A stretch of DNA of 64,000 nt, taken from Oscillospiraceae bacterium (lineage in GTDB: Bacteria; Bacillota; Clostridia; Oscillospirales; UBA929). The position numbers and the translations under genes are program-made. Location: positions 62,001-126,000 of the forward strand of contig WRAI01000001.1 of assembly GCA_009780275.1 (NCBI GenBank), in the 5' to 3' direction. This document shows positions 20,710 to 37,128 of this stretch, one piece after another (positions within the stretch are counted from its first letter, which is position 1; every line of letters begins with the position of its first letter). The notes under the pieces were generated by a model. The model had not been told where the DNA came from. It ran no database searches and saw only the letters and a list, made by a program, of their open reading frames with translations.

Positions 20710-23700
20710 CTAGCGTGGCAGCATTTCTAAGGCCTGTCGATGCAGTTCATTTTGCCGCTCAGTATGGTCGGAAATGATTTGCGGGAGTAGTTCTCCGGCA
20801 AGTTCTTCTCGCGCGGCCCAATCCGATGAGATGTCGCTTTGTGCCTGCACAAGAAGATGTGCGCGCGCCCACGGACTGCAATAATATTCGCCGATAATCG
20901 CGGCATTAAAGGTGAAAATAATATCGGCGTTGAGCAACTCATGTCGTTCAGGCGGAGGGTCACGCCATTCGGCGCGAAGCTCGACGAGCCGTGCGTTGTG
21001 CTGTGTGGCCATCTCGGTAAATGTTGCGTGCGAAATGTTAAAATATTGGATCATCCGCACGAGAACGGGAAACTCGTGACGCAACGGCCTATCACGGGCG
21101 AAGTCATATGCCAAAAATCTCTCCACAGCGTCTTCGCCAAGATAGGCGTCAAACAACGTGCCATCTAAGCTGGCAAGAATACCGCCGCCATGGTTGACGC
21201 ACCCCCAATGATCGCCAAAACAGGAAGCAAAGATGGTGCCGTTGGTCGGAGAACGCAGATTTTCGTGGCTTACGATTAAGCCGTTTTCAACCGTAAAACG
21301 TGAAAAAACAAAGTAGGGAATGCCGCCGTCAATCATTGGTGCCCATGACTCAACAACAGTGCGTCTGTCATCTTGTTCGACAATGGCATGAACGGCACTG
21401 TCCCAAAACACGGTGTAGTTGGCTTCGCATGATTCGATAAGAAGTGTATAGAGATAGCCGTCACGCTCAATCAATAGCGGTATGTCGTCCCACGTGAAGA
21501 ATAACGCATCAAGAAAATTCGGCTCGTAGTAGCGCAGCAATTCACCGCGCACATCGGCGATGCTTCTAAACCCGCTGTTGGGGTTGATGCGAGCGTATGA
21601 TATGATAAATGGTGTGCGCCACTCAGAATCAGCCGGCGGGGCGTGCCCAACGTCAACGGTAATCCACTCGCCGTCAGCGCCTCTGTATATTTGGCGGCTC
21701 AATCGCCTCGGCCAAAGCAAGTCCTGGCGCAATATTTGCGCCGCCGAAATCAACGCTCCGATTTCCAATTCTTCCACTGTGCGCTTGCGGTCTAAATCAG
21801 CAAGCGTTTGTGTCGCCAACGGTTGGGAGTCGACGGGATTATCTTCCGCCGCGGGCGGCTCAGAATCAACGGCCTCAGGCTTATCAGCCATTTCCCACGG
21901 GAAAACAACCTGTATCGGTGCGCCGCTTGACGGCGACCACTGCCATACACTGCCGTCATCGCGGAGCGCGAGAAGATGTGCGTTGCTGGCTGAAATAGCA
22001 GTGATGTTTGTAAGCTCATAAAGCGTCGGATTCTCATACGCCGGGCGGAACGCAAACGCGAGGTCGCTAAGTGTAGAATTAGAGGATAGACCGGCGAGCA
22101 TAGGCCACGCCCACACCGTGCCGTCGGCGTTGAGGATAAAATAGGACGACAACGCCGCGGCGTCACCAATACCGGGAAGCTCTATAAACCTACCGTCAAC
22201 GCGCACCCAAACTGTGCCGTCGCTGCGGAGAATTACGACGGAGCCATCACCGGCAATTGTCATGTCAGCGGCGTTGTCGATGCCGTGAATTCGTTCGGGA
22301 CGCCCCAAATAAGATGAGGCAACCAGCGAAGGAGCAGGCATTATATGTTCCCAAATCGTGCCATCGTCACGAAGCCAAATGTTAAATGTATGCACAGGCG
22401 TCGTATTGGTTGAAATAGCGCCAAAGCCATAGGCCACAATGCCAGATAAGTTAAAGATGTCGTTATATTCCCATCGATAAAATTCGCGTCCGGCGCGGTT
22501 GACGTCCCGCACAAAGAAACGCAATCTGCCGTTGCTGTCGACGATAGATGGTGTTATAAAATCGTTGCCGACGATTGACGCATCGGGCAAATCAGGTAAT
22601 TGGATAGGCTCCGGCTGACGTGCGCCCCAAATAAAGATCGCGCCATCCTGACGAATGGCCATATTATACTCCGTGCCTGTGCCGACATCGACGATATTAT
22701 TCAAGCCCTGTATTTGCACAGGTGTAGTACCGTCGTTGCGCCACTCCCAAACATTACCATTGTGGTCAATTGCCAAATTGTGTGTCGAACCTGCGGAAAC
22801 AGCAGCGATATAATGCCCCGGCGGCGCAGGAGTAGCTGTCTCCCACGGGAAGATAACGCGGATGGGCGGGCTTGAAGTCGTAGACCAACCCCAAACCGTA
22901 CCATCCTTGCGTAATGCCAAGCAGTCGGAAATGGCGACGATGTTGTCAAGATTTGGTATTTGGAGAATGATGGGTGTGTCATCAAGGCCGTTTTGGTGCC
23001 TGTCCATTGACCACACTGTGCCGTCGTCGCGCAGTGCTGTGGTGGATAGCAATTCCGGTACAATGGCGATAATGTTATCTAGACCAAATTGTACCGGCGT
23101 ACGTTGGCTTCTAAAAAGTGAAAGACTCACGCCTTGGGAGGAGTGAAAGCCCCACTCCCACGTCGTACCGTCGGATAAAATCGCGGCATGGCGGCTGCTC
23201 GAAGCAATGGAAACAACGCTGTATAGCTCCGGCACTTGCACCGGTTCATCAAAAACATCGAATTGCGTGGTGCTAACGCCATCGGCCTGCACGCCCCATG
23301 TCCAGACCTTGCCGTCGGCATCAAGCGCCATGCTGTGGTCGCCGCTTGCGGCAACCGCTGTGACGTTGTTTAAGTGCAGTACCTGCACGGGGGGCTGCCA
23401 GTTCTCTTTTGTTATATGCCGCCTTGTGCCGGTCGTGCCGCTGCCCAGCTGTCCGTAGCCGTTTTGTCCCCATGCCCAGACTGTGCCGTCATCGCGCAAA
23501 GCTAAAAGATGGTCGCCCCCTGCTGCAATAGCCGCAATGTTACTGAGTTCGGGCACTTGCACGGGCAGTGGGTTGAGCAAATCTTCGTTTTCATTCGCGT
23601 TGGTGGGATGAACAGCAATATTTTCCCGATACCAAACCGTGCCGTCGCTTCGCAGTGCATAGATAGCGCGGGGGGAAGGCTGACCAATGGCGATGATGTC

Positions 23701-24096
23701 ATAGAATCCTCGGAGTTGTTGCGGCGGTTGGTCGCTGTCGGGAGAGTTCCACCAACGCCAGACCGTGCCGTCGTTGCGAAGGGCAAGGGCACTGTTGTGT
23801 TGTGCTGAAATGGCCGTGATATAATATTGTGGTGAATCCCAAGGCTCAACCGGCTCTTGCGCCGGCGGCGCGTCGATAAAAAACAACGGCAGTGCAAATG
23901 GCAAAGCAATGGCAAGCAGCAAACACGCAGCGATGGCGGTAAGCACATATCGCTTGCGGACGAGAAAACCATCTGCCGTTGTGCCGCCGTCCTCTTTGCG
24001 AAGGAGGGTAGGAGTTTGTTGCCCCACAACATTTTCGCGAATTTTCTCCTTATCCAGAAGCTCCTCGCGGACAAGCGACTTGATAAAATTTTTCAT
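20710..24096 (-). CDS. Large membrane protein with two RCC1-type propellers, putative sigma-factor regulator
   Basis: A 1128-residue protein. Residues 1-49 are charged and cytosolic, 50-73 form one membrane helix, and the rest should be outside. Fourteen RCC1-type blades (ALRxDGTVWxW) form two sets of seven, about 91-419 and 427-750. Blade 7 ends PPIRVIFPWE and blade 14 ends APIQVVFPWE, so the seven-blade unit was duplicated. A linker and a C-terminal domain of about 350 residues that I do not recognise follow. The start lies 2 bases after the sigma gene stop with GGAGGG upstream. The layout (short cytosolic segment, one helix, large outer sensor, directly after a sigma gene) fits an anti-sigma factor, but no zinc anti-sigma or RsgI motif is visible. 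Confidence 0.82.
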   Translation of the reverse strand: MKNFIKSLVREELLDKEKIRENVVGQQTPTLLRKEDGGTTADGFLVRKRYVLTAIAACLLLAIALPFALPLFFIDAPPAQEPVEPWDSPQYYITAISAQHNSALALRNDGTVWRWWNSPDSDQPPQQLRGFYDIIAIGQPSPRAIYALRSDGTVWYRENIAVHPTNANENEDLLNPLPVQVPELSNIAAIAAGGDHLLALRDDGTVWAWGQNGYGQLGSGTTGTRRHITKENWQPPVQVLHLNNVTAVAASGDHSMALDADGKVWTWGVQADGVSTTQFDVFDEPVQVPELYSVVSIASSSRHAAILSDGTTWEWGFHSSQGVSLSLFRSQRTPVQFGLDNIIAIVPELLSTTALRDDGTVWSMDRHQNGLDDTPIILQIPNLDNIVAISDCLALRKDGTVWGWSTTSSPPIRVIFPWETATPAPPGHYIAAVSAGSTHNLAIDHNGNVWEWRNDGTTPVQIQGLNNIVDVGTGTEYNMAIRQDGAIFIWGARQPEPIQLPDLPDASIVGNDFITPSIVDSNGRLRFFVRDVNRAGREFYRWEYNDIFNLSGIVAYGFGAISTNTTPVHTFNIWLRDDGTIWEHIMPAPSLVASSYLGRPERIHGIDNAADMTIAGDGSVVILRSDGTVWVRVDGRFIELPGIGDAAALSSYFILNADGTVWAWPMLAGLSSNSTLSDLAFAFRPAYENPTLYELTNITAISASNAHLLALRDDGSVWQWSPSSGAPIQVVFPWEMADKPEAVDSEPPAAEDNPVDSQPLATQTLADLDRKRTVEELEIGALISAAQILRQDLLWPRRLSRQIYRGADGEWITVDVGHAPPADSEWRTPFIISYARINPNSGFRSIADVRGELLRYYEPNFLDALFFTWDDIPLLIERDGYLYTLLIESCEANYTVFWDSAVHAIVEQDDRRTVVESWAPMIDGGIPYFVFSRFTVENGLIVSHENLRSPTNGTIFASCFGDHWGCVNHGGGILASLDGTLFDAYLGEDAVERFLAYDFARDRPLRHEFPVLVRMIQYFNISHATFTEMATQHNARLVELRAEWRDPPPERHELLNADIIFTFNAAIIGEYYCSPWARAHLLVQAQSDISSDWAAREELAGELLPQIISDHTERQNELHRQALEMLPR

Positions 24097-24098
24097 AC

Positions 24099-24617
24099 TC
24101 AGCCCTCCAACAATGCACGCAAGGTTTTCAGCGTACGGTACAGCTTGTTTTTGACGTTCGATTGGCTCACGCTAAGCGTTTTGGCGATTTGCGGAATGGT
24201 CAGCTCAACATCGTAGAAGAGTGCGAAAATTTTCTGCGTTACGTCGTCCTGCTGGCGCAAAATGTCACGTGCCTGTGCCGCCATGGCTTGATTGACGGCA
24301 AAGTCCTCGGTCAACAGCGCGTCAAGGTTGGCATCAACCTCCGTTTGCTCGTCCAACGGCATGACGTCAGGCTGCTTCTTAGACTTGGCGTAATGCTTGG
24401 CGACTTTGCGCCGCGCGAGTTTCATCGCCAGCCCCTTGTCATGGCGCACATATTCAACGCCGTGTCGGCGCAAGATTTGATACAGCTCTATGTACGTCTC
24501 CTGCACCAAATCGCCGATGTCGTGAATATTGCGGCACTTGGACGCAATTAATCTCGTCACCGATGTATATGTAGCGTCATAAATTTCGTTAAAACGTGCG
24601 GTGACCAAATCGAGCAT
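24099..24617 (-). CDS. ECF-type RNA polymerase sigma factor
   Basis: A 172-residue sigma-70 family protein with region 2 (about 5-75; DLVQETYIELYQIL is the region 2.2-type motif) and region 4 (about 112-165; IFALFYDVELTIPQIAKTLSVSQSNVKNKLYRTLKTL, the helix-turn-helix that reads the -35 element). No regions 1 or 3 are present, as in ECF sigma factors. The ATG at 24617 follows GGGTGAAA; a TTG one codon earlier is less likely. It is followed two bases later by the RCC1 membrane protein, the probable partner. Its target promoters are unknown. Confidence 0.9.
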   Translation of the reverse strand: MLDLVTARFNEIYDATYTSVTRLIASKCRNIHDIGDLVQETYIELYQILRRHGVEYVRHDKGLAMKLARRKVAKHYAKSKKQPDVMPLDEQTEVDANLDALLTEDFAVNQAMAAQARDILRQQDDVTQKIFALFYDVELTIPQIAKTLSVSQSNVKNKLYRTLKTLRALLEG

Positions 24618-24670
24618 CAAATTTCACCCTTTCGATGATGTAATGGCACGGTTGATAGAAAAAGTTTCAA

Positions 24671-25931: not shown

Positions 25932-27443
25932 TTACAAAAAAACAAACCCGCACTCATCCAACGGCTGCCGCAATAAGCAGTTCACAGCCGCAGCGGCCAG
26001 CGGGTAGTCGTCCTCAATGGCCAACGCGCCCGCGCCCGCACAGGGCAGTGCGGACAGTAATAGCAATTGTTCATCAAGCAGTCGATAATACAGTGTAAAT
26101 AATCCGGGTAATTTTTTGGTCTTGACCGCGATATCTTTTTCCGCAACCGCCTGCCAATCCGGCGGCAGTGCCATGTCCTTGCAGTGCGGAAATGGCGGAA
26201 ATGCCAGCCATGTTTCGCCGTCGGACAACGCCGTGACTGACCAGACGCAGTCGCGGCAGTTCATAGTTTTGGGCGGGCGAATTCCCGGAACAACAAGGCT
26301 GTGCTCCAGTGCCGCCATCACCGCCGTCACGCCGCCAAACACCGGCAAGATGGCGCGCGGGCGCTCAGCGTCGGCAACGCTTTTAACGCTGTCAGGCGTG
26401 ATAGGCTCGACATAATGCCGCCGAATGTCCGCCGCCGTCAAATATGGCGACAGAAGCGACGCCTCATAGCCGCGGCGATGCAGTTCGGTCACGGCATTGA
26501 CAATCAACGGCTCGTAGTTGCGATGCCCCAGTAGCAGCACCCGCGGCTTGTCGGAATGTTTCACCTCGTTTCGCGTTCCGCTGATGGGGTAAAAATAATC
26601 CGCCGAGGTTGTCACGCCGGTAGCTGCCGTGCTGTGTACGTTGGCGCGGCGATAGCCCGGCTTTTGGTGGCGCGGTGTGTCGCCGATAAGCGCCTCAATA
26701 TCCTGCACGGAAAACCCCAGTTTTAACGCAACGCTGATAGCTGCTGCGTCCCGTGAGGCAATCAGTTCGCGTTGTGCGTAAAGAAGTTCAAGCAGTACTT
26801 GAATGTAGATGGTGTCAATCCCCGTCATACGTCGCACCTGCTCAATGTCATACAGCCCGCGGCGCAGCAGCTCGGCGGCATGCGGCAAGGAGTGCTTGCA
26901 ATGATGCACCAGCGCGCCGTCACTCAGCCGCCGGACGTTGACATCAAACAGCCCGCCGGTGTGGCGTGCGGCGTTGAGCAACGCCTTGCCAAGTTGGTTG
27001 GAAATGCTAAACATACCGTCGTTAAGCACTGCTAAATAGTCAAGATTGGGCGGAAAAACATGCCCTTCATTTTGAATGTCCCACAGCGTCGCGCCGTCTT
27101 TCAGCCGTTGCGACAGCGTCGCCAAATCAACCTGCTGAGCTTGGGCGACAAGCAGCGTCTCAGCACACAGTTCCTGCGAATGCGCCAGCAGCAAAAATTC
27201 ATGGCTGTCAAACACTATGGCGTAGCGAAACACAGTTGCGCCGCACAAGTTTTCGCGCTCGGAGACCTGTATGGCATCGGCACGCAATAACGCCAAGTCA
27301 TGCGGGCTCATCGTCAAAGCCGGCACGATGGCGCGGTCGTAATCAATTTGCTCAGCAGGACAAAGCCACGCGACAGAACCGTTGCTATCGCGCAATTGGA
27401 TCAGCGTAATGCCCTTGGTGTGGAGCGGGCGATTTGTTGTCAC
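25932..27443 (-). CDS. CarB-like protein lacking functional ATP-grasp sites
   Basis: A 503-residue protein that is collinear by eye with carbamoyl-phosphate synthase large subunit (about 1070 residues) but heavily cut down. Residues about 15-125 match the second half of ATP-grasp 1 (RDSNGSVAWLCPAEQID), yet the catalytic NPR motif is replaced (LAHSQELCAE). About 185-255 match the oligomerisation domain (LLRRGLYDIEQVRRMTGID). About 275-375 match the linker and start of the second half (SDKPRVLLLGHRNYEP, with the glycine loop lost; RRHYVEPITPDSV). About 440-500 match the end of ATP-grasp 2 (DYPLAAAAVNCLLRQPLDE). The N-terminal 200 residues and the allosteric domain are absent. GTG at 27443 follows TTGGAGGAA. 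Synthase activity is not expected; the role is unknown. Confidence 0.7.
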   Translation of the reverse strand: MTTNRPLHTKGITLIQLRDSNGSVAWLCPAEQIDYDRAIVPALTMSPHDLALLRADAIQVSERENLCGATVFRYAIVFDSHEFLLLAHSQELCAETLLVAQAQQVDLATLSQRLKDGATLWDIQNEGHVFPPNLDYLAVLNDGMFSISNQLGKALLNAARHTGGLFDVNVRRLSDGALVHHCKHSLPHAAELLRRGLYDIEQVRRMTGIDTIYIQVLLELLYAQRELIASRDAAAISVALKLGFSVQDIEALIGDTPRHQKPGYRRANVHSTAATGVTTSADYFYPISGTRNEVKHSDKPRVLLLGHRNYEPLIVNAVTELHRRGYEASLLSPYLTAADIRRHYVEPITPDSVKSVADAERPRAILPVFGGVTAVMAALEHSLVVPGIRPPKTMNCRDCVWSVTALSDGETWLAFPPFPHCKDMALPPDWQAVAEKDIAVKTKKLPGLFTLYYRLLDEQLLLLSALPCAGAGALAIEDDYPLAAAAVNCLLRQPLDECGFVFL

Positions 27444-27458
27444 CTCAGATTCCTCCAA

Positions 27459-28484
27459 TTACGATTTGTCAGTGGCCGCCACCCACGCCGGCGGAATATA
27501 TCCTGTAAACTGTACACCCCAAATCGGCTTATCCTTGTGTTGCAAACCGGCACAAAGTCCGTCGGATGTGCGATGTGTAACGATGAGGTCGCTGCGGTCG
27601 GCAAGCAAACACTCGGGCAGTGACAGGCGGTGGTTGTGTGCGTTGCCGTACATGCGGCCGGCGGAAACATCAAGTGTGGCAAAATCATCGCTGTGAACGC
27701 CCAGTCCAATGGCTTCCAACGGCAAATCCAGTGCCGCGCAGAGCAACGAAAAGCCGTTTCCGACAGCCAAAATCGGCTTTTGACACTGCCGAATTTTGTC
27801 AATTAGTCCAACGTCATGTCCATCCTCACGCGCACCATGAGAAATAACGATGGCATCGTAATTGTCAGCCGCCCAATTGCCCAACGGTGGCAGTAACTTT
27901 ACATCAAAGCCTTGTAAGCACAACTGCCGCACCAACGTGCGCGAACTGCCCAGATCAACAACGCCGATATGTCCGCGCGACGGCCCATGCGCCTCGTACG
28001 GTGTGGCGTGTTTGACCGCGCCGGGATACGCGCCGCGCATGGTGTGGTCGTTGAGCTTGGCGTGAAGTGCCTGCCAGCCGCTGAATCCCGGCGTGGCGCA
28101 AATGGCGGCACGCATAGCACCGTGCTCGTTGAGATGTGTCTGCAACGCCTGCGTGTCAATGCCTTTAATGGCGGTGACATAGTGCCGCCGCAGATAATAA
28201 TCCAGCGTCTCGGCTGAGCGCCAATGCGACGGCGTATCGCACACATCGTTGACGATCAAGCCGCTCAAAAAGGGCTTGCCCGCCTCGCAGTGCTCGGTAT
28301 TGACGCCGTAAACCCCAACCAACGGCGTGTTGAGCAGCAGCAATTGGTTGGCATACGCGGGGTCACCAAGCGGCGGCATATACGAGCCGTCATGACAACA
28401 AATATGCCCGATGGCAACGCCTGGCGAACCAAACGCCTCGCCTTGGAATCGGGTTTTGTCGGAGAGCAGCAATGTGGCTTTCAT
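27459..28484 (-). CDS. CarA-like protein with a dead glutaminase site
   Basis: A 341-residue homologue of carbamoyl-phosphate synthase small subunit. The N-terminal CarA domain is recognisable: LLLSDKTRFQGEAFGS, GDPAYANQLLLLNTPLVG, and VTAIKGIDTQALQTHLNEHG. In the glutaminase domain the nucleophile motif ICLGHQ reads VGNGFS (Cys to Gly242), and the GVQYHPE triad motif reads GVQFTGY (His to Thr327, Glu to Tyr329), so glutamine hydrolysis should be impossible. The frame is intact, with TAGGAG before the ATG at 28484. It lies 15 bases before the CarB-like start, in the normal carA-carB order, downstream of pyrF. Confidence 0.8.
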   Translation of the reverse strand: MKATLLLSDKTRFQGEAFGSPGVAIGHICCHDGSYMPPLGDPAYANQLLLLNTPLVGVYGVNTEHCEAGKPFLSGLIVNDVCDTPSHWRSAETLDYYLRRHYVTAIKGIDTQALQTHLNEHGAMRAAICATPGFSGWQALHAKLNDHTMRGAYPGAVKHATPYEAHGPSRGHIGVVDLGSSRTLVRQLCLQGFDVKLLPPLGNWAADNYDAIVISHGAREDGHDVGLIDKIRQCQKPILAVGNGFSLLCAALDLPLEAIGLGVHSDDFATLDVSAGRMYGNAHNHRLSLPECLLADRSDLIVTHRTSDGLCAGLQHKDKPIWGVQFTGYIPPAWVAATDKS

Positions 28485-28529
28485 GGAAACTCCTATTTAT
28501 CTGTTTGCAGGGCGCTCGGTGTGCGCCGC

Positions 28530-29402
28530 CTATATAATTTTTTGCAACTTCTCTCGCATATCTAATGCTTCGGCCCGCGCTGCCTCAGCGTAATGCCCGC
28601 CGCGTTTCTGCCACGCCCGCAAAATATCACGTGAATTATTGACGATTGCGTGACCGCCGTTGGCAAAGGCAGGGGCAACACTTGCCGCCGTGCCGCCTTG
28701 CGCGCCATAGCCGGGGATTAAGAAAACAGTGTCGGGCATGGCGTCTCGCAATTCGGTCAATTGTGCCGGATGCGTTGCGCCGACAACAATGCCGATATGC
28801 CGGTTGTGCAGTGCCGCCAGTTGTTCGGCAATATGCCGGTAAACCGGCTTGCCATCAACAAGTAAGTCTTGCACGTCGCTCGACGATGGGTTCGATGTCT
28901 TGACCAACACAAAAATATCGCGATCATACGCCTCGCAAGCGTCAAGAAACGGGTCAAGATTGTCACTGCCCTGATACGGGTTGACAGTCATACAGTCGCA
29001 GCCGAACGCCTCATATTCGGTATTGCCGATCCTGGTTTTTCCGATAAATGCCTGCGCGTACTGCGCCGATGTTGAACCAATGTCACCGCGTTTGGCATCG
29101 GCGATGATGTAGTAGCCCAACTGCTTAGCGTACTTGACGCTCTCGGCAAAGGCAATCATGCCCGGCACGCCGAACGCCTCATGACACGCCAACTGCGGTT
29201 TGACAGCCGGCACAATGTCTTGCAGCGCGTCCAAAATGCCCTTGTTAAATTCCAGAATGGCAGCCCCCGCGGCCTCCGGCGTTTCGCCCTGCGCGGCGAT
29301 ATGCTTGTCCAGCAATTCAGCGGGCAACATATCCAATCGCAGATCGAGCCCCACAACGGTGGGGTTCTGTTTGGCGGCGATGGCGGCAATTAGCTTATTC
29401 AT
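28530..29402 (-). CDS. pyrF: Orotidine 5'-phosphate decarboxylase, subfamily 2
   Basis: Decarboxylates OMP to UMP, the last step of de novo pyrimidine synthesis. The 290-residue length and motifs fit the long PyrF subfamily: VVGLDLRLDMLP, PAVKPQLACHEAFG, the catalytic IADAKRGDIGSTSAQYA (Asp-Lys-Asp array), TVNPYQGSDNLDPFL, VGATHPAQL and IPGYGAQGG. Catalytic residues are all present, in contrast with the two following genes. The start overlaps the end of pyrC by 8 bases. Confidence 0.95.
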   Translation of the reverse strand: MNKLIAAIAAKQNPTVVGLDLRLDMLPAELLDKHIAAQGETPEAAGAAILEFNKGILDALQDIVPAVKPQLACHEAFGVPGMIAFAESVKYAKQLGYYIIADAKRGDIGSTSAQYAQAFIGKTRIGNTEYEAFGCDCMTVNPYQGSDNLDPFLDACEAYDRDIFVLVKTSNPSSSDVQDLLVDGKPVYRHIAEQLAALHNRHIGIVVGATHPAQLTELRDAMPDTVFLIPGYGAQGGTAASVAPAFANGGHAIVNNSRDILRAWQKRGGHYAEAARAEALDMREKLQKII

Positions 29403-30420
29403 AAGTAACTTTTCCTCTCAACTTCATGCCTGTAAACGGCGTATTGACACATCGCCCCGACGGCTGATATGTGTATTCGGCGTCTAAGTCAATTTGCACT
29501 GTCTCATCCGTTGACGGTAAACCTAAAATGCGGCGCGGCGCATGACAGAGCTTGTCAACAATCTGTTCAAGTGTCAGCAAGCCGGTGAAATATAATGCCG
29601 TCAGTGTCGCCGGCCACAACGTTTCTAAGCCGATGATGCCGTTGGGTGGCTTGTTGCGCATCTTTTCTACCCAATGGTGCGGCGCATGGTCGGTCGCAAT
29701 GGCATCAATTGTGCCGTCTTGCAAAGCTTCAAGAACAGCCTCAATATCGGCCTGTGTCGCCAGCGGCGGCGCCATGCGGGCGTTGCCGCCAAATGTCGCC
29801 ACTGCGTCCTTGGTGAAGGTAAAGTGGTGCGGCGCGACCTCGCAAGTGACGGGTAAGCCGTCACGCTTTGCCTGTCGAATAAACGCCAGTGCATTAGCAC
29901 GGCTGACATGCGCGATATGTATCGGCACGCCTGTTTTGGCCGCCAGTTCACAATCCCGCGAGACTTGCTCTATTTCCGGCTCACAGTGGTCAATCAGCGG
30001 CAAGCCGACAGCCTGCGCCTCACGCATCGCCGCTTCCATGATAACATCGCTGACAGGTATGCCGTCATCACTCAACGCAACAACGCCGGCTTGCTTCAAT
30101 GCCGCAAAGTCGGTCAGCTCCTGTCCGCGTTGCCCGACAGTTACGGCGGCAATGATGTGAACATTGGCGTAGGGGCGGCATTCTGCCGCCCGCGGGCGAC
30201 TGCAAGTCGCCCCTATGTGGGCAATACGCTCACGCAACCGCGTCACCATCGCTGCGTTGTCAATGGGCGGTGCCGTATTGGGCATCATGACAATGTCGGC
30301 AATGCCGTTGGCCGCAGCAATCCGCGTCCCCTCGGCAATGTCAGTCTTATACGTCTGCCCCGGGTCGCGAAGATGAACATGCATATCGCATGCAGCGGGG
30401 AGGGTTATGATATTTGACAT
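29395..30420 (-). CDS. pyrC: Dihydroorotase, short form with a repeat-derived insertion
   Basis: Cyclises N-carbamoyl-aspartate to dihydroorotate. The 341-residue product begins almost at the first metal motif (CDMHVHLRDPG, residues 11-21) and so lacks the roughly 45-residue N-terminal beta-sandwich segment of ordinary 420-residue class I enzymes. Other metal and substrate motifs are intact: ALSDDGIPV, DHCEPE, HIAHVSR, APHHFTF and IATDHAPHH. A 16-residue stretch (GATCSRPRAAECRPYA) is encoded by a palindromic repeat (30169-30216) and has no counterpart in the family. The ATG at 30420 follows AGGAGA. Confidence 0.92.
   Translation of the reverse strand: MSNIITLPAACDMHVHLRDPGQTYKTDIAEGTRIAAANGIADIVMMPNTAPPIDNAAMVTRLRERIAHIGATCSRPRAAECRPYANVHIIAAVTVGQRGQELTDFAALKQAGVVALSDDGIPVSDVIMEAAMREAQAVGLPLIDHCEPEIEQVSRDCELAAKTGVPIHIAHVSRANALAFIRQAKRDGLPVTCEVAPHHFTFTKDAVATFGGNARMAPPLATQADIEAVLEALQDGTIDAIATDHAPHHWVEKMRNKPPNGIIGLETLWPATLTALYFTGLLTLEQIVDKLCHAPRRILGLPSTDETVQIDLDAEYTYQPSGRCVNTPFTGMKLRGKVTYE
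30169..30216. repeat. TAGGGG...CCCCTA element inside pyrC
   Basis: 48 bases bounded by GTAGGGG and CCCCTAT. Inside are two hairpins: GGGCGGCA-TTC-TGCCGCCC and GGGCGACT-GCA-AGTCGCCC. The ends match the intergenic copies at 14094 and 17601. Being 48 bases long without a stop in the pyrC frame, it adds 16 codons without breaking the gene. Confidence 0.75.
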
Positions 30421-30561
30421 GGTGAGGTTCTCCTGTCGCGCCTCGTGTACGCGTGCTGTTCGCCAAAACTTCGGCATTACAACTTCCGCGCCGTTGGCTG
30501 TGCCAACTATGCGAAAGTTTCTATGCACTCCATTTTTGGCGGCACGCTACTCGGCAGTTCT

Positions 30562-31800
30562 TTATGGATTAAACTGCTTCATCACAACACCTGTTGTTAA
30601 TTTCGGGTAAAAGTATGTCGATTTCTGCGGCATACGCTCGCCCGCGAGAGATACATCGGCCATTTGTTCAATGCGGGTGGCGTTGAGCAGGAAAGCACAC
30701 TGCGCTTCGCCGTTGTCTACCGCGTCAAGCGCCGTTTGCAGTGAGCGGGTGTATTTAATGTGGCTTTGCGCCGCCAGCTCAGCTTTGCCAATGCCTAAAA
30801 CGGGCTCTAAAATCATGTTGTGCAGCAGCGCCACATCCAAGCCGCGGTACGCCTCGCTATGCTGAGGCAGTGCTTTGGCCATTTCAGCGCGGTCACGCAA
30901 CGTCAACAACGCATAATGCCGGTTGCCGGCATAGAGCGCGACAGTGTCTTCGCGCTTAGCAAGCTGCTCTTCGACATTGGCAATGTCTTCGCACAATGTG
31001 ATCTCAAAGTGCGGCGACAGCTGCATCAATACATCGGTTGCCGAGAAGTTGTCCACATTAAAGACAAGGCGGTGTGTCGGCCAAATCACCAGTCCATCGT
31101 CAGCCATATCGACCAGCATGGTCATAATACGCGAAGCATTGATATCGGGGTGTTCATTATAATATTCCAATGCTGTGGTATAGCGGTGGTGCCCGTCGGC
31201 AATATAGAGCGTCTTGTCATGAAACGCCTCTGTGATTTTTTGCGTATCGGTCGGGTCATCAATACGCCAAAAGCGGTGAACAACGCCGTCTTCGTCAGAG
31301 AACTCCAAGTCAGGCGCATTTGTCGTATAACCGGACATTAACCTATCGACTGCCCGCTGCGGGTCTTGATACAGGCAGTAAATCTGACTGAAATTGCAGT
31401 GTGTAGCATCCATCAAGGCGTAGCGGTCACCTCGTGCCTTGGGTAAAATTTCCTCGTGCGGCAACACAACGCCGGCCGCAAACGGCTCCAAACCGACATC
31501 GCCGATGATGCCGGTAATCTTGCGGCGCGTGCCTCTGTCATCAAACTCCTCTTGATACACCGTAAACGAAGGCGCGTCATCGGTCGCCAAAATCCCGCCG
31601 CCCAACCAGTCTTTTAACGTTTCCGCCGCCTCGCCGTAATCAGTCGGCTTCTCCAAGCGGATGACATTATATTTGTTTTTTGCCAGCAATGCCTGCTCTT
31701 CTTTGTCATAAATGATGTCATAAGGCGGGCAGACAAGCAGCGTGATGTCACCTGCCTCAGGTGTGTACCGCAGAGCGCGGAATGGAAATACGTTAGCCAT
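30562..31800 (-). CDS. DUF1015 family protein
   Basis: A 412-residue protein matching the DUF1015 family: VFPFRALRYTPE and VCPPYDIIYDKEEQALLAKNKYN near the N-terminus, the LPHEEILPKARGDRYALMDAT segment, and YIADGHHRYTTALEYYNE in the middle, which is the family's most conserved motif. Some members have been linked to serine/phosphoserine metabolism, but the function here is not established. The ATG at 31800 follows GGGAGG and a consensus-like promoter. It is the first gene of the minus-strand unit leading into pyrC, with about 140 bases between them. Confidence 0.88.
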   Translation of the reverse strand: MANVFPFRALRYTPEAGDITLLVCPPYDIIYDKEEQALLAKNKYNVIRLEKPTDYGEAAETLKDWLGGGILATDDAPSFTVYQEEFDDRGTRRKITGIIGDVGLEPFAAGVVLPHEEILPKARGDRYALMDATHCNFSQIYCLYQDPQRAVDRLMSGYTTNAPDLEFSDEDGVVHRFWRIDDPTDTQKITEAFHDKTLYIADGHHRYTTALEYYNEHPDINASRIMTMLVDMADDGLVIWPTHRLVFNVDNFSATDVLMQLSPHFEITLCEDIANVEEQLAKREDTVALYAGNRHYALLTLRDRAEMAKALPQHSEAYRGLDVALLHNMILEPVLGIGKAELAAQSHIKYTRSLQTALDAVDNGEAQCAFLLNATRIEQMADVSLAGERMPQKSTYFYPKLTTGVVMKQFNP

Positions 31801-31829
31801 AAAATAACCTCCCAATGTATTTATGTCGT

Positions 31830-32220: not shown

Positions 32221-32271
32221 TTCTAGTAATTAGGGATGCATATCCCACAGAAAAAGAGGAGGAAATACATA

Positions 32272-35200
32272 ATGGCAAAGTATCGTAAATCATGCAAACG
32301 AACGGCATCGTTTCTACTTGCGCTGGCGATGTTGTTCACCCTCGTGCCCGTATTTGGAGCGAACGCGGCACAGGCACAGACGGGTACGCCGTCAACACCT
32401 GAGAATGTCAATGACATTCCGGGCATAACGCACACGCAAATTGCCAACAGTGGTGTTGGCAGCGATCTCCGCTTCAATGTATTGGAAATCGCGCCGAATG
32501 CGCCTGTACGCGTCTTGGCAGGTTTGCCGCGCTACGGACAGGTTGAAGGATTCCGCACCGTCGGCCAAATGGCAACAAGCTACGGTGAAGCGGGCTATGA
32601 TGTCGTTGCCGCCATGAACACCGGCTTATTCGGACTGGGTGTCCCTGCGGGGACACAAGTTGCATCGCAGGGTGCGTTCATCCGTGATGGCATTCTTATG
32701 CGCAACTGGGGCCCGGGCGGCACATCCGAATATGTCGGCGCAGAGCAATATCTTTTGGGATGGAAAGCCGACGGCACCTTTGTCTACGGATTGAACCCCT
32801 TCCATACCATGAACCTTTCGGTCAACGGTGGTGCGCCTCGTACCTTTACGGGGCTGAATACGGGCCGCGGAGACTTCCAAGGAAATCCGCCTCCATGGAG
32901 CGACCTGATACTGTGGACAGAACACTTCGCCCCGGAAGCTGTCACGCCGGCTGCGCGCTTAGCAGGCGCACGGGATGTTTATCTTGAAGTACTGTCAGGG
33001 CGTATGGCGTTTGGCGAAACGCTGACTATGCGTGTCGTGCAAGCGGCACATGACGGGGTCAATAACGCCGTCATCGCGCCCGACCACGCCCGCCTTGTGG
33101 CAAGAAATGCCGCTGACGTCGCTTTCTTAAACGGGTTGAATGTCGGCGATATAGTCACCATTAACCATACAGTCACCAATCGCAGCACAAATACACCGGA
33201 CCCGCGCATCAATCACATCACATTCCCCGCAATGCCGAACTTCACTTGCACGGTGGATTGGACAGAAGTGGTGGAAGCAGTTCCTGCTGCGCTTTGGGTA
33301 CATCGTGATGGTATAGACCATAACATTACACAAGGGCAAAGCGGCGGCCTTGTTTGGAACTCATATCGCCCCCGCACCGTCTTTGGCGTAACGGCCGATG
33401 GCACACAGCTATGGGCTGTTGCCAGCGGCAACAGCAGCGGTATGAGCATTCCGCAAGCACGCCAGCAGTTGGTCGACCGCGGGGCCGTCAATGTTTGGAA
33501 CTTCGACGGCGGCGGCAGCTCGACCATGACCATCGGCAATACGTTAGTGACGTTCGCCGCCGGCATGAGCGGTGGTGTGCCGTCGACATTCCAACGCTCT
33601 ATTGCTAACGGTATGGTGCTGGTGCGCGACAACCAACCACCCATCACCGGCAGTTATGCCGTGACGGTGGACGGCGCTTACGTCGGCACATTTGATGTCG
33701 GCGAAACCGTTTCCCTCGAAGTCCTGCGTGCAGGCTTCAGCATCCGCGCTGTCGGCGGTTTGGCCGGCATTACGCCGACCATCGACGGCACAGATTTGGT
33801 ATTCACCATGCCGGATAGGGCCGTAGACATTACGCTGGTTGTTGTCAGTGTGCCCAGAGCCGGCGGACGTGTCGGCAGCTTCCTGAACCAAGCCGGCCCG
33901 ACAAACGAAGTTCACATTGGACCGTGGGTTTCGGGCGTCGGCACACCGGTAGCACCGGGCGGCTCGACGTTGACAGGCATGGCAGGCAACCCGCTCGTCA
34001 TGAATATCACAGCGGCAGACGCAGGAGTACATCCGCAGCTCCGCCGCCAGTTCTGGCACTTGACAACGGCCGGCTCGCTCAATACCGCCGGTGCCGGTGC
34101 GTTTGTCAACCAAAATCTGCGTGCCGATGAGCATTACATCAGCTACCGTGTCGTAGCCACAATGCCTTTTAACATCCGTGTCCACGCCCACCAGCCCGGC
34201 TATCGTGGTGTAGGTGAAAGTTGGAGAAGTGTTCTTGGTACAGGCACAACAAGCGGTTTTGCACCTGCCGATACACACGAAGGCAAAATCAGCTTGGCCG
34301 ACATCATCGCATTCAACGCCAACCTGGCCGACAGCAACATCGCTGTGGTAAACGGCTTTGAAATTTGGGGTGACCAAAACTATGCGGGTGGCGGAAACAT
34401 CAGCGTCGAAAAATTCGACTGGTATTATGCGCCTCCGGCATACGGCATCATCCTTGGCGACCGCATGGGATTTGTCGATCCCGATACATTAGACGGCTTG
34501 CTCACGCCGGCGGCCGACTTTACCGTCGGACAAACCATAGTCATTGAACTCGATGTTGGCGGTTTGGCGGGCGTAAGCATCCCCGCGCTCGGTGGCATCA
34601 ACTACTCGCTCTTTGCCGCGGGCGGCAGGTTCTTTGCCTCTTTCGCCATGCCGGACGACAACTTAGAGTTAGACGTCGTAGGTGGTGAAAGAGACTATGT
34701 ATACTTGATTAATGAGGACTTCGAAGGGCTGACAGAGCTGCCCGAAGACTGGTGGCTCGCCAATGCAGCCAGCGATCTTGCGGTCAATGTTCAAGACGGC
34801 ACGCTGACGCTGGACAACGGTGCGGTATCTGGGCATACTTTGATTATGCTGCCCGTCGATGTCTGGGATTTTGACCTTGGCTACACAGCCACCTCAGCCG
34901 GCCGTCATGATACACGTCTCCGTGTGCAAGATGATATGCTGAGAGGCGGGCACAACCATTACGGCCTCGCCACCGTCATCCTGCCCGGCAATCCGAACGC
35001 CAACGTCATCGTCGGTCTGCCGCGCTTTACCGATGAAAACATCATGCGTGACGACACGCAATTTCAAACAGGCAACTGGCCTGCCGAAAATCGTCCCGGT
35101 CCGTTTGCCGCCGCCTCAACGCACGATTGGCTTTATCGCGTCCGCGGCACGCAGCTGACCATCTATAAAGACGGTGCCTATTTCGTCAGCATGGACATCA

Positions 35201-37128
35201 CCGACTATTATCGCGGTGTTATGGGCAACAACCCCGGCGACGCCGGCTTCTTGCAACTCGGCGCAAATTCCGGCAGCATCGCCCTATTCGGGTTCAGTAC
35301 GACAGTTGTCTACGACAATGTCTTCGTGCGCGTGCCTGCAAATGTTGAGCCCGAAGAAACGCCGAACATTTCGATTAACTTCCCCGGTGAATTTTTGACG
35401 GGCTTTGCGACAACTAACTATACCATCAATGGCGTTGCTGTCGATTTTTCCGCCGGTGGCGTAATAACCAACTCGACGGCAATTGATCCCGCATGGTTTG
35501 GCACAACGCTGAGCATCGTCCGTGTAGGTGACGGTGAAGACACCTCTGATAGCAAGCCGCAAATGCTCTTTGTTCCCGCCCGCCCCGCCGCGCCGACGGG
35601 CCTGACGGCTGTGGCAACAAGCTCAGCGACGATAAATGACGGCCGCATCACCGGCGTCACCACTGCGATGGAATTTAGCACCGACGGCGGCGACACTTGG
35701 ACTAACGCAACAGGCATCGAAATCACCGGCTTGGCGCCCGGTGCTGTGCGGGTACGTGTTCGCGGTACGGCAACAGGCTTTGCCGGCCTGGCGGCAATGT
35801 TGACCATCGAGGTCGGCGCGATCGACACCTGGGCTGAAGCTGAAGACACACCAAACAGCTGGGCCATTCCCGATATGATTCGTGCCCGTCAGCACGGCAT
35901 CGTCGGTGACGCGTTGCCGCAAGGCGTTCTCTACCGTCAAGGCGCACCGCGCTGGTACATCGCCGAATTGCTGGCCAGCTACATGGTTGTCTATACAGGC
36001 TTGCCAACCATTAACGACGTTGTAAGTGACTGGAAAGACAGAACCGGCGCCGATATTACCCCGACCCCCGGCCCGTTCTTCCCCGATATCCCGGAAACCC
36101 ACCCGCTGTTCGATGAAATCCAAGCCTTGGCGATCATGGGCATCCTGCAAGGCGGCGAATTCGGCGGCGTATTTGGCTTCGGACCCGATTACACCTTGAC
36201 GCGCGCACAAGCCGCTGTTGGCTTGGCACGTATGATGGAAGTGTTGGGCTATACCACCATAGGTTTCCCGCCGGCGATCGATTTTGCCGATTGGCATATT
36301 GGCGGCGGAGGGGGCGGCATCCAGTCTTGGGCGCGTGACGCCGTGGCATTCTTATACTACCACGAAGTCATGCTCAGCACGGCCACTACCGGCACCCCGC
36401 CCGGCGACCCGCTCTTCATCTTCAACCCCAACTTCGAGTTCCACACCCAACAACTGCTCACCGGCATGGTGCGCATGTTGCTGGAAACCGATTGGAGAAA
36501 TCCGCCGACTCCGCCCGAGGGCGTCGTTCTGTTCGACTTGTTTGATTTGCCGACCAGTGGCTGGGTCATCACTGATGCAGGTGGCGGCACAGCTCAAGTC
36601 ACCAACGTTGGCGGTGCATACACTTTTGTCAACAGCGGTGGTGGTCGGCCAAACGCACTCTTTGAGTTTGATGCCGAAATGGCCGAGACAATGACTTGGC
36701 CGCGTGAAATGTGGCCGTACATCACACTGCACTTTGACATTGAAGTGGCAAGTGAAGCAGCCATTTTGACATACGACTGGGACACATACTCTGTCTACAG
36801 CATCTTTGTCAACGGCGCGTTTGTTGACTTGTTGCCCGACTTCTCCAACTGGCAAAATTACTTCAGCAATGCGGGCGACCTCTTGTCAGGCCACTATACC
36901 GGCACACGGACGCTGCATCAGCTGCTCAACAGCCGTTTTGCAACCCTTCCCACTAATGAACCCGATGTCTTTCACTTTGAGTGGATTGACTTTGTAGAAG
37001 ACACCTTTGTCTTCGCCGGCATGCAGTTCTGGCCAGTCGGCGGCAACATAACAGTGCGCGAATTTCGCCTCACCATGCCGTTCGATATGTTTGCGCCGGT
37101 ATCAATGATTAATTTACCCTTGGCATAG
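32272..37128 (+). CDS. Large exported phosphodiester glycosidase-like / SLH-domain protein
   Basis: 1618 residues. A Sec signal peptide (about 1-34) is followed by a NAGPA-type phosphodiester glycosidase domain (about 80-450; VWNFDGGGSSTMTIGN near 408 is the signature). Next comes a beta-rich region with VDGAYVGTFDVGETVSLEV-type modules, a concanavalin-like domain (near 820-1020; LINEDFEGLTELPEDWW), and a fibronectin-like stretch. SLH-type repeats follow near 1193-1403 (SWAIPDMIRARQHGIV, HPLFDEIQALAIMGILQG, TRAQAAVGLARMM), then a C-terminal beta domain. The SLH repeats imply cell-wall attachment; the glycosidase domain implies action on phosphodiester-linked glycans such as wall polymers. GAGGAGG precedes the ATG. 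Confidence 0.85.
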   Translation: MAKYRKSCKRTASFLLALAMLFTLVPVFGANAAQAQTGTPSTPENVNDIPGITHTQIANSGVGSDLRFNVLEIAPNAPVRVLAGLPRYGQVEGFRTVGQMATSYGEAGYDVVAAMNTGLFGLGVPAGTQVASQGAFIRDGILMRNWGPGGTSEYVGAEQYLLGWKADGTFVYGLNPFHTMNLSVNGGAPRTFTGLNTGRGDFQGNPPPWSDLILWTEHFAPEAVTPAARLAGARDVYLEVLSGRMAFGETLTMRVVQAAHDGVNNAVIAPDHARLVARNAADVAFLNGLNVGDIVTINHTVTNRSTNTPDPRINHITFPAMPNFTCTVDWTEVVEAVPAALWVHRDGIDHNITQGQSGGLVWNSYRPRTVFGVTADGTQLWAVASGNSSGMSIPQARQQLVDRGAVNVWNFDGGGSSTMTIGNTLVTFAAGMSGGVPSTFQRSIANGMVLVRDNQPPITGSYAVTVDGAYVGTFDVGETVSLEVLRAGFSIRAVGGLAGITPTIDGTDLVFTMPDRAVDITLVVVSVPRAGGRVGSFLNQAGPTNEVHIGPWVSGVGTPVAPGGSTLTGMAGNPLVMNITAADAGVHPQLRRQFWHLTTAGSLNTAGAGAFVNQNLRADEHYISYRVVATMPFNIRVHAHQPGYRGVGESWRSVLGTGTTSGFAPADTHEGKISLADIIAFNANLADSNIAVVNGFEIWGDQNYAGGGNISVEKFDWYYAPPAYGIILGDRMGFVDPDTLDGLLTPAADFTVGQTIVIELDVGGLAGVSIPALGGINYSLFAAGGRFFASFAMPDDNLELDVVGGERDYVYLINEDFEGLTELPEDWWLANAASDLAVNVQDGTLTLDNGAVSGHTLIMLPVDVWDFDLGYTATSAGRHDTRLRVQDDMLRGGHNHYGLATVILPGNPNANVIVGLPRFTDENIMRDDTQFQTGNWPAENRPGPFAAASTHDWLYRVRGTQLTIYKDGAYFVSMDITDYYRGVMGNNPGDAGFLQLGANSGSIALFGFSTTVVYDNVFVRVPANVEPEETPNISINFPGEFLTGFATTNYTINGVAVDFSAGGVITNSTAIDPAWFGTTLSIVRVGDGEDTSDSKPQMLFVPARPAAPTGLTAVATSSATINDGRITGVTTAMEFSTDGGDTWTNATGIEITGLAPGAVRVRVRGTATGFAGLAAMLTIEVGAIDTWAEAEDTPNSWAIPDMIRARQHGIVGDALPQGVLYRQGAPRWYIAELLASYMVVYTGLPTINDVVSDWKDRTGADITPTPGPFFPDIPETHPLFDEIQALAIMGILQGGEFGGVFGFGPDYTLTRAQAAVGLARMMEVLGYTTIGFPPAIDFADWHIGGGGGGIQSWARDAVAFLYYHEVMLSTATTGTPPGDPLFIFNPNFEFHTQQLLTGMVRMLLETDWRNPPTPPEGVVLFDLFDLPTSGWVITDAGGGTAQVTNVGGAYTFVNSGGGRPNALFEFDAEMAETMTWPREMWPYITLHFDIEVASEAAILTYDWDTYSVYSIFVNGAFVDLLPDFSNWQNYFSNAGDLLSGHYTGTRTLHQLLNSRFATLPTNEPDVFHFEWIDFVEDTFVFAGMQFWPVGGNITVREFRLTMPFDMFAPVSMINLPLA

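Follow-up and report, generated by a model that had tools for sequence, protein, structure and literature searches.

The closest described system is the bacterial glutamine-dependent CarA-CarB enzyme (CPS II). The carA-like gene A and the carB-like gene B described here resemble it in the ancestry of both genes, the gene order, the place in the pyr operon, the CarA fold and parts of the CarB fold. However, A and B lack the Cys-His-Glu triad, the ATP-grasp active sites and the allosteric domain. The pair is thus predicted to be unable to make carbamoyl phosphate by known chemistry. Mammalian ammonia-dependent CPS1 has a glutaminase-like domain in which Cys is replaced by Ser (PMC4655335), and it likewise retains a CarA portion without glutaminase activity. 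The synthetase part of CPS1 is complete and active, whereas that of the A-B pair appears dead too. Retained dead paralogues are already known in pyrimidine synthesis. The inactive dihydroorotase of Pseudomonas (pDHO, PyrC') was shown experimentally to be needed for assembly of aspartate transcarbamoylase (PMC7053772). Like A and B, pDHO is a pyrimidine-enzyme paralogue that has lost activity but stays in the pathway; it belongs to another protein family, however, and the assembly role demonstrated for pDHO is only proposed for A-B. No report of a dead CarA-CarB pair was found among the top results of the open-licence literature.

In this study, we analyzed a window, a 64,000-nucleotide stretch from an Oscillospiraceae genome (G000; 2.09 Mb, estimated to be 97% complete), and compared it with its family in a set of 18 genomes. 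The features of the locus are as follows.

30562..31815, minus strand: DUF1015 protein, first gene of the conserved operon
29395..30528, minus strand: pyrC (dihydroorotase), same operon
28530..29402, minus strand: pyrF (orotidine-5'-phosphate decarboxylase)
27459..28484, minus strand: carA-like pseudoenzyme gene (A), 341 aa, ATG start, AGGAG at 28490-28494
28035..28484, minus strand: N-terminal (CPSase) domain of A, spanning residues 1-150 and better conserved than the remainder
27504..27974, minus strand: glutaminase-like domain of A, residues 171-327, fold retained, catalytic residues gone
27759..27761, minus strand: codon 242 of A, Gly in place of the nucleophile Cys (GICLGHQ to AVGNGFS)
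27498..27509, minus strand: codons 326-329 of A, FTGY where active CarAs have FHPE
27451..27456, minus strand: ribosome-binding site of B, GGAGGA, directly past the end of A and 7 nt upstream of the GTG
25932..27443, minus strand: carB-like remnant gene (B), 503 aa from the GTG at 27443; the open frame reaches 27458
27040..27416, minus strand: late half of ATP-grasp 1 in B (CarB about 214-357); species of the sister genus retain the segment formed by its first 100 residues
26689..26879, minus strand: remnant of the CPSase oligomerisation domain (CPSase_L_D3) in B
26308..26501, minus strand: pre-ATP-grasp domain of the second CarB half (CPSase_L_D1) in B, shortened, low model confidence
25975..26261, minus strand: weak remnant of the end of ATP-grasp 2 in B, by alignment only

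The original prediction placed the two genes in carA-carB order after pyrF, and the order was found to be pyrC-pyrF-A-B, with DUF1015 before pyrC and rsmG after B. No Rfam RNA elements were found near the operon. A 1630-aa secreted-looking protein is encoded divergently from the DUF1015-pyr operon (32236-37128, plus strand). At 20710-24620 (minus strand), a sigma-factor-like gene (24099-24620) is followed by one for a 1128-aa protein that carries RCC1-like 'DGTVW' repeats.

We examined A and B against the CarA and CarB families. A matched the Pfam domains CPSase_sm_chain (7e-30) and GATase (8.5e-10) and showed homology to CarA (TIGR01368 / PRK12838) over its full length, which also aligned with E. 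coli CarA. Its scores stayed under the curated equivalog cut-offs (166 vs 221 and 155 vs 307 bits). An AlphaFold2 model of A (mean pLDDT 70) had the CarA fold, matching E. coli CarA with a TM score of 0.80 (E 2e-25). The predicted replacement of ICLGHQ by VGNGFS and of the terminal HPE by TGY was borne out by alignment, in which all seven known A proteins lacked the triad in the same way, with Cys replaced by Gly and HPE absent.

B was collinear with CarB from about residue 214 to 645, followed by the weak ATP-grasp 2 end (hhalign probability 99.3%, E 1e-20), and matched TIGR01369 at 7e-15; its descent from CarB is supported by sequence. The shortening, the collinear fragments and the loss of the NPR and glycine-loop motifs were all as predicted. 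Absent from B are the first ~210 CarB residues, most of the second ATP-grasp domain and the allosteric domain, whereas a CarB of the TIGR01369 type has two complete ATP-grasp halves with NPR motifs and an allosteric domain. The structure model of B, which matched CarB, was good mainly over the first 250 residues (late ATP-grasp 1 and oligomerisation domain). The frame proposed for B (25932-27458) is indeed open, but the GTG at 27443, lying behind GGAGGA, is the better start.

We searched related genomes for the same pair. Six species of a sister genus (g3), all Oscillospiraceae MAGs, carry the pair with intact frames in the operon DUF1015-pyrC-pyrF-A-B-pyrK-pyrD-pyrE; the contig of one of them, G002, does not extend over both ends. 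The E-values together with the occurrence of the pair in six other species exclude a chance match. The A proteins of g3 share 35-36% identity with the window A and have also lost the triad, and the g3 B proteins are only 175-193 aa long. The N-terminal domain of the window A keeps 31 of 38 ancestral-type residues that are invariant in g3. The sample codes of three of the six g3 MAGs, Th196 and Nt197, denote the termites Termes hospes and Neocapritermes taracua (PMC7024585), so at least three of the seven pair-bearing bacteria come from termite guts.

Elsewhere in the family, five genomes of genera g2, g4 and g5 (G005, G007, G003, G011 and G004) have pyrK immediately after pyrF and no pair in this slot, and a different gene lies between pyrF and pyrK in G009. 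Intact carA-carB genes fill the same slot in the sister family f2 (G042) and in Petroclostridium. An order-wide search of 295 genomes gave no further member: members scored above 500 bits, against 278 for the highest match below them, and the top non-members that we inspected were triad-bearing CarAs of the ordinary kind. A search of the genome contigs with the A alignment returned the g3 records and ordinary CarAs that keep the triad (Petroclostridium, MAG-2163, Kyrpidia), and a scan of the contigs with B alone found no relative.

In the CarA tree, the seven A proteins formed one clade with support of 100/99. Because the branch of the window species is long, derived states were also checked. 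The window A has 30 of the 71 alignment columns that are fixed in g3 A and unlike the active consensus, and other CarAs, triad-less ones included, share at most 10. Long-branch attraction is an unlikely source of the clade, as the other fast triad-less CarAs share only 4-9 of these 71 states. B also starts at about the same CarB residue in both genera. By these sequence characters, we infer that the seven A proteins descend from a single origin.

We then considered whether A and B are merely still-open remnants of a redundant carAB. The lost catalytic residues, the large deletions in B, the different extent of truncation in the two genera and the absence of the pair from other genera of the family are what such decay would leave. 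However, pairwise codon models within g3 rejected neutrality for both A (2dlnL 263-312) and B (2dlnL 43-94). In A, omega was at or below 0.07 and dN was 0.15-0.22, like that of the working operon genes pyrF, pyrC, pyrK and DUF1015. In B, dN was 0.25-0.50, about 1.5-2 times faster than in A and still constrained. Saturation of dS in many g3 pairs makes the omega values approximate, but omega = 1 is still rejected and the comparison with neighboring genes stands. In neutral simulations, the open frame survived in 0.6% (A) and 0.1% (B) of cases at 0.25 hits per site, and frames were lost at 0.5 hits per site, yet they are open in seven species. The constraint on A and B within g3 and the derived residues common to both genera make plain decay improbable, and for g3 this reading is already disfavored. 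A combines lost catalytic residues with purifying selection, measured in g3, as a pseudoenzyme does.

The strength of selection may differ between the two genera. The divergence of the C-terminal relative to the N-terminal domain was 1.09 in g3 A and 1.03-1.22 in other CarA groups, which indicates that the g3 glutaminase-like domain is, at the sequence level, as constrained relative to the N domain as in those groups. Between the window A and g3, the N domain was 54% different and the C domain 74%, and selection on the glutaminase-like domain of the window A may for this reason be weaker than in g3. Selection was measured within g3, and the window species has no close relative found. Retention of the pair is well supported in g3 and likely, if less directly shown, in the window species. 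These results agree with the original prediction that the genes are kept rather than simply decaying, as they occur in seven species of two genera, have a single origin and are under purifying selection in g3.

The constraint on the g3 glutaminase-like domain would also be expected if A and B catalyzed a different, new reaction. Against this, the old site holds neither a conserved Cys-His-Glu set nor another evident catalytic one, and the ATP-binding parts are missing from B, so we regard a new reaction as very improbable. It could further be argued that translational coupling or spacing in the operon is the sole reason why the frames persist, as in most g3 species A overlaps B, and B overlaps pyrK, by a few bases. 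This idea is largely refuted and hardly credible: selection acts on the amino acids and not on length alone, the gene that follows B in the window is rsmG, and pyrF stands directly before pyrK in the five genomes of g2, g4 and g5.

Each pair-bearing genome has another carA. In the window genome, a second carAB lies on contig 16 (C16; locus L058, 881-6018), where CarB is fused to DapF (diaminopimelate epimerase) and is complete except for a shortened oligomerisation domain. The genome also has pyrB, argF and dihydroorotate dehydrogenase. The C16 CarA, whose loss of the triad was not part of the original prediction, reads GIGLGHQ and FYPG instead of GICLGHQ and FHPE, and we therefore rejected the C16 carAB as an ordinary glutamine-dependent enzyme. 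Because its triad is lost, it is probably an ammonia-dependent synthetase like CPS1. With a triad-less CarA and a nearly full CarB, it is by sequence the true analogue of CPS1 in this genome and comes close to the arrangement expected of such an enzyme, a triad-less CarA with a complete CarB; the operon of A offers no complete CarB as a partner.

The presence of another carA in all pair-bearing genomes, together with the CarA fold and conserved N-terminal domain of A, raises the question of whether A and B act on the second synthetase, with A competing with or replacing the true small subunit on its CarB and tuning activity or the nitrogen source. We consider this rather unlikely. A carA of its own lies next to the other carB, A and B are located in the pyr operon and not beside the second carAB, and the second carAB differs in origin among the pair species (CarB-DapF type or 1075-aa type) while the pair is unchanged.

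A new non-catalytic job for the pair is probable, because the catalytic parts are lost and yet seven species keep the pair and A is under selection in g3. We lean slightly towards the view that A and B are a retained pseudoenzyme pair in which A may bind B and which may play a structural or regulatory part in pyrimidine synthesis. A and B would be the former carA-carB of the pyrimidine operon. In the common ancestor of the two genera, the glutaminase triad would have been lost (Cys to Gly, with His and Glu gone), and carB would have lost its first ~210 codons. Neither protein would then hydrolyze glutamine or use ATP in the manner of CPS, and carbamoyl phosphate supply would have shifted to another carAB elsewhere. 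The CarA fold, whose N-terminal domain is the most strictly kept part across the genera, may be a partner without catalytic activity through which the de novo pyrimidine enzymes are assembled or regulated, much as the inactive dihydroorotase serves aspartate transcarbamoylase in Pseudomonas, and the retained CarB piece may be the docking partner of A.

The retention of A is more secure than a complex of the pair, because B is shortened far more than A and changes faster. The shortening of B, to 175-193 poorly conserved residues in g3, speaks most strongly against an A-B complex of the CPS type, and A may act alone or with something other than B. The pair is missing from other genera of the family, and pyrimidine synthesis as such therefore does not depend on it.

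Loss of the triad is not confined to A. Among the 42 aligned CarAs, all triad losses fell within the family of the window species, and the CarAs examined outside it keep the triad. Their positions in the tree suggest at least four separate losses: in the pyr-operon clade, in the C16 CarA of G000, in G007, and in a group of G010, G014, G016 and G017 whose triad-less CarAs group with family f13 in the tree. At the triad-less CarA loci L168, L053-L057, L035 and L083-L088, Cys was replaced by Gly each time. GuaA without a glutaminase domain was observed in G000, G007, G010, G014 and G012, and as a second copy in G006, G008 and G017 (loci L186, L177, L183, L184, L185, L179, L191 and L192); some of these loci are close to triad-less carAB. 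No match to CTP synthase was found in G007, G010, G014 and G016, which are 89-94% complete and have triad-less CarAs; this absence may reflect loss or incomplete assembly.

At least four losses of the CarA triad, together with GuaA lacking its glutaminase domain, indicate a lineage that uses free ammonia. High ammonia has been reported in termite guts (PMC4675541), and it may have driven the triad losses. It is conceivable, and we put it forward tentatively, that a whole two-subunit enzyme was converted in place to a non-catalytic complex that assembles or regulates its own pathway, in a lineage that repeatedly abandoned glutamine as a nitrogen donor. The pair offers a way, provided by nature, to test which functions the CarA fold has beyond hydrolyzing glutamine.
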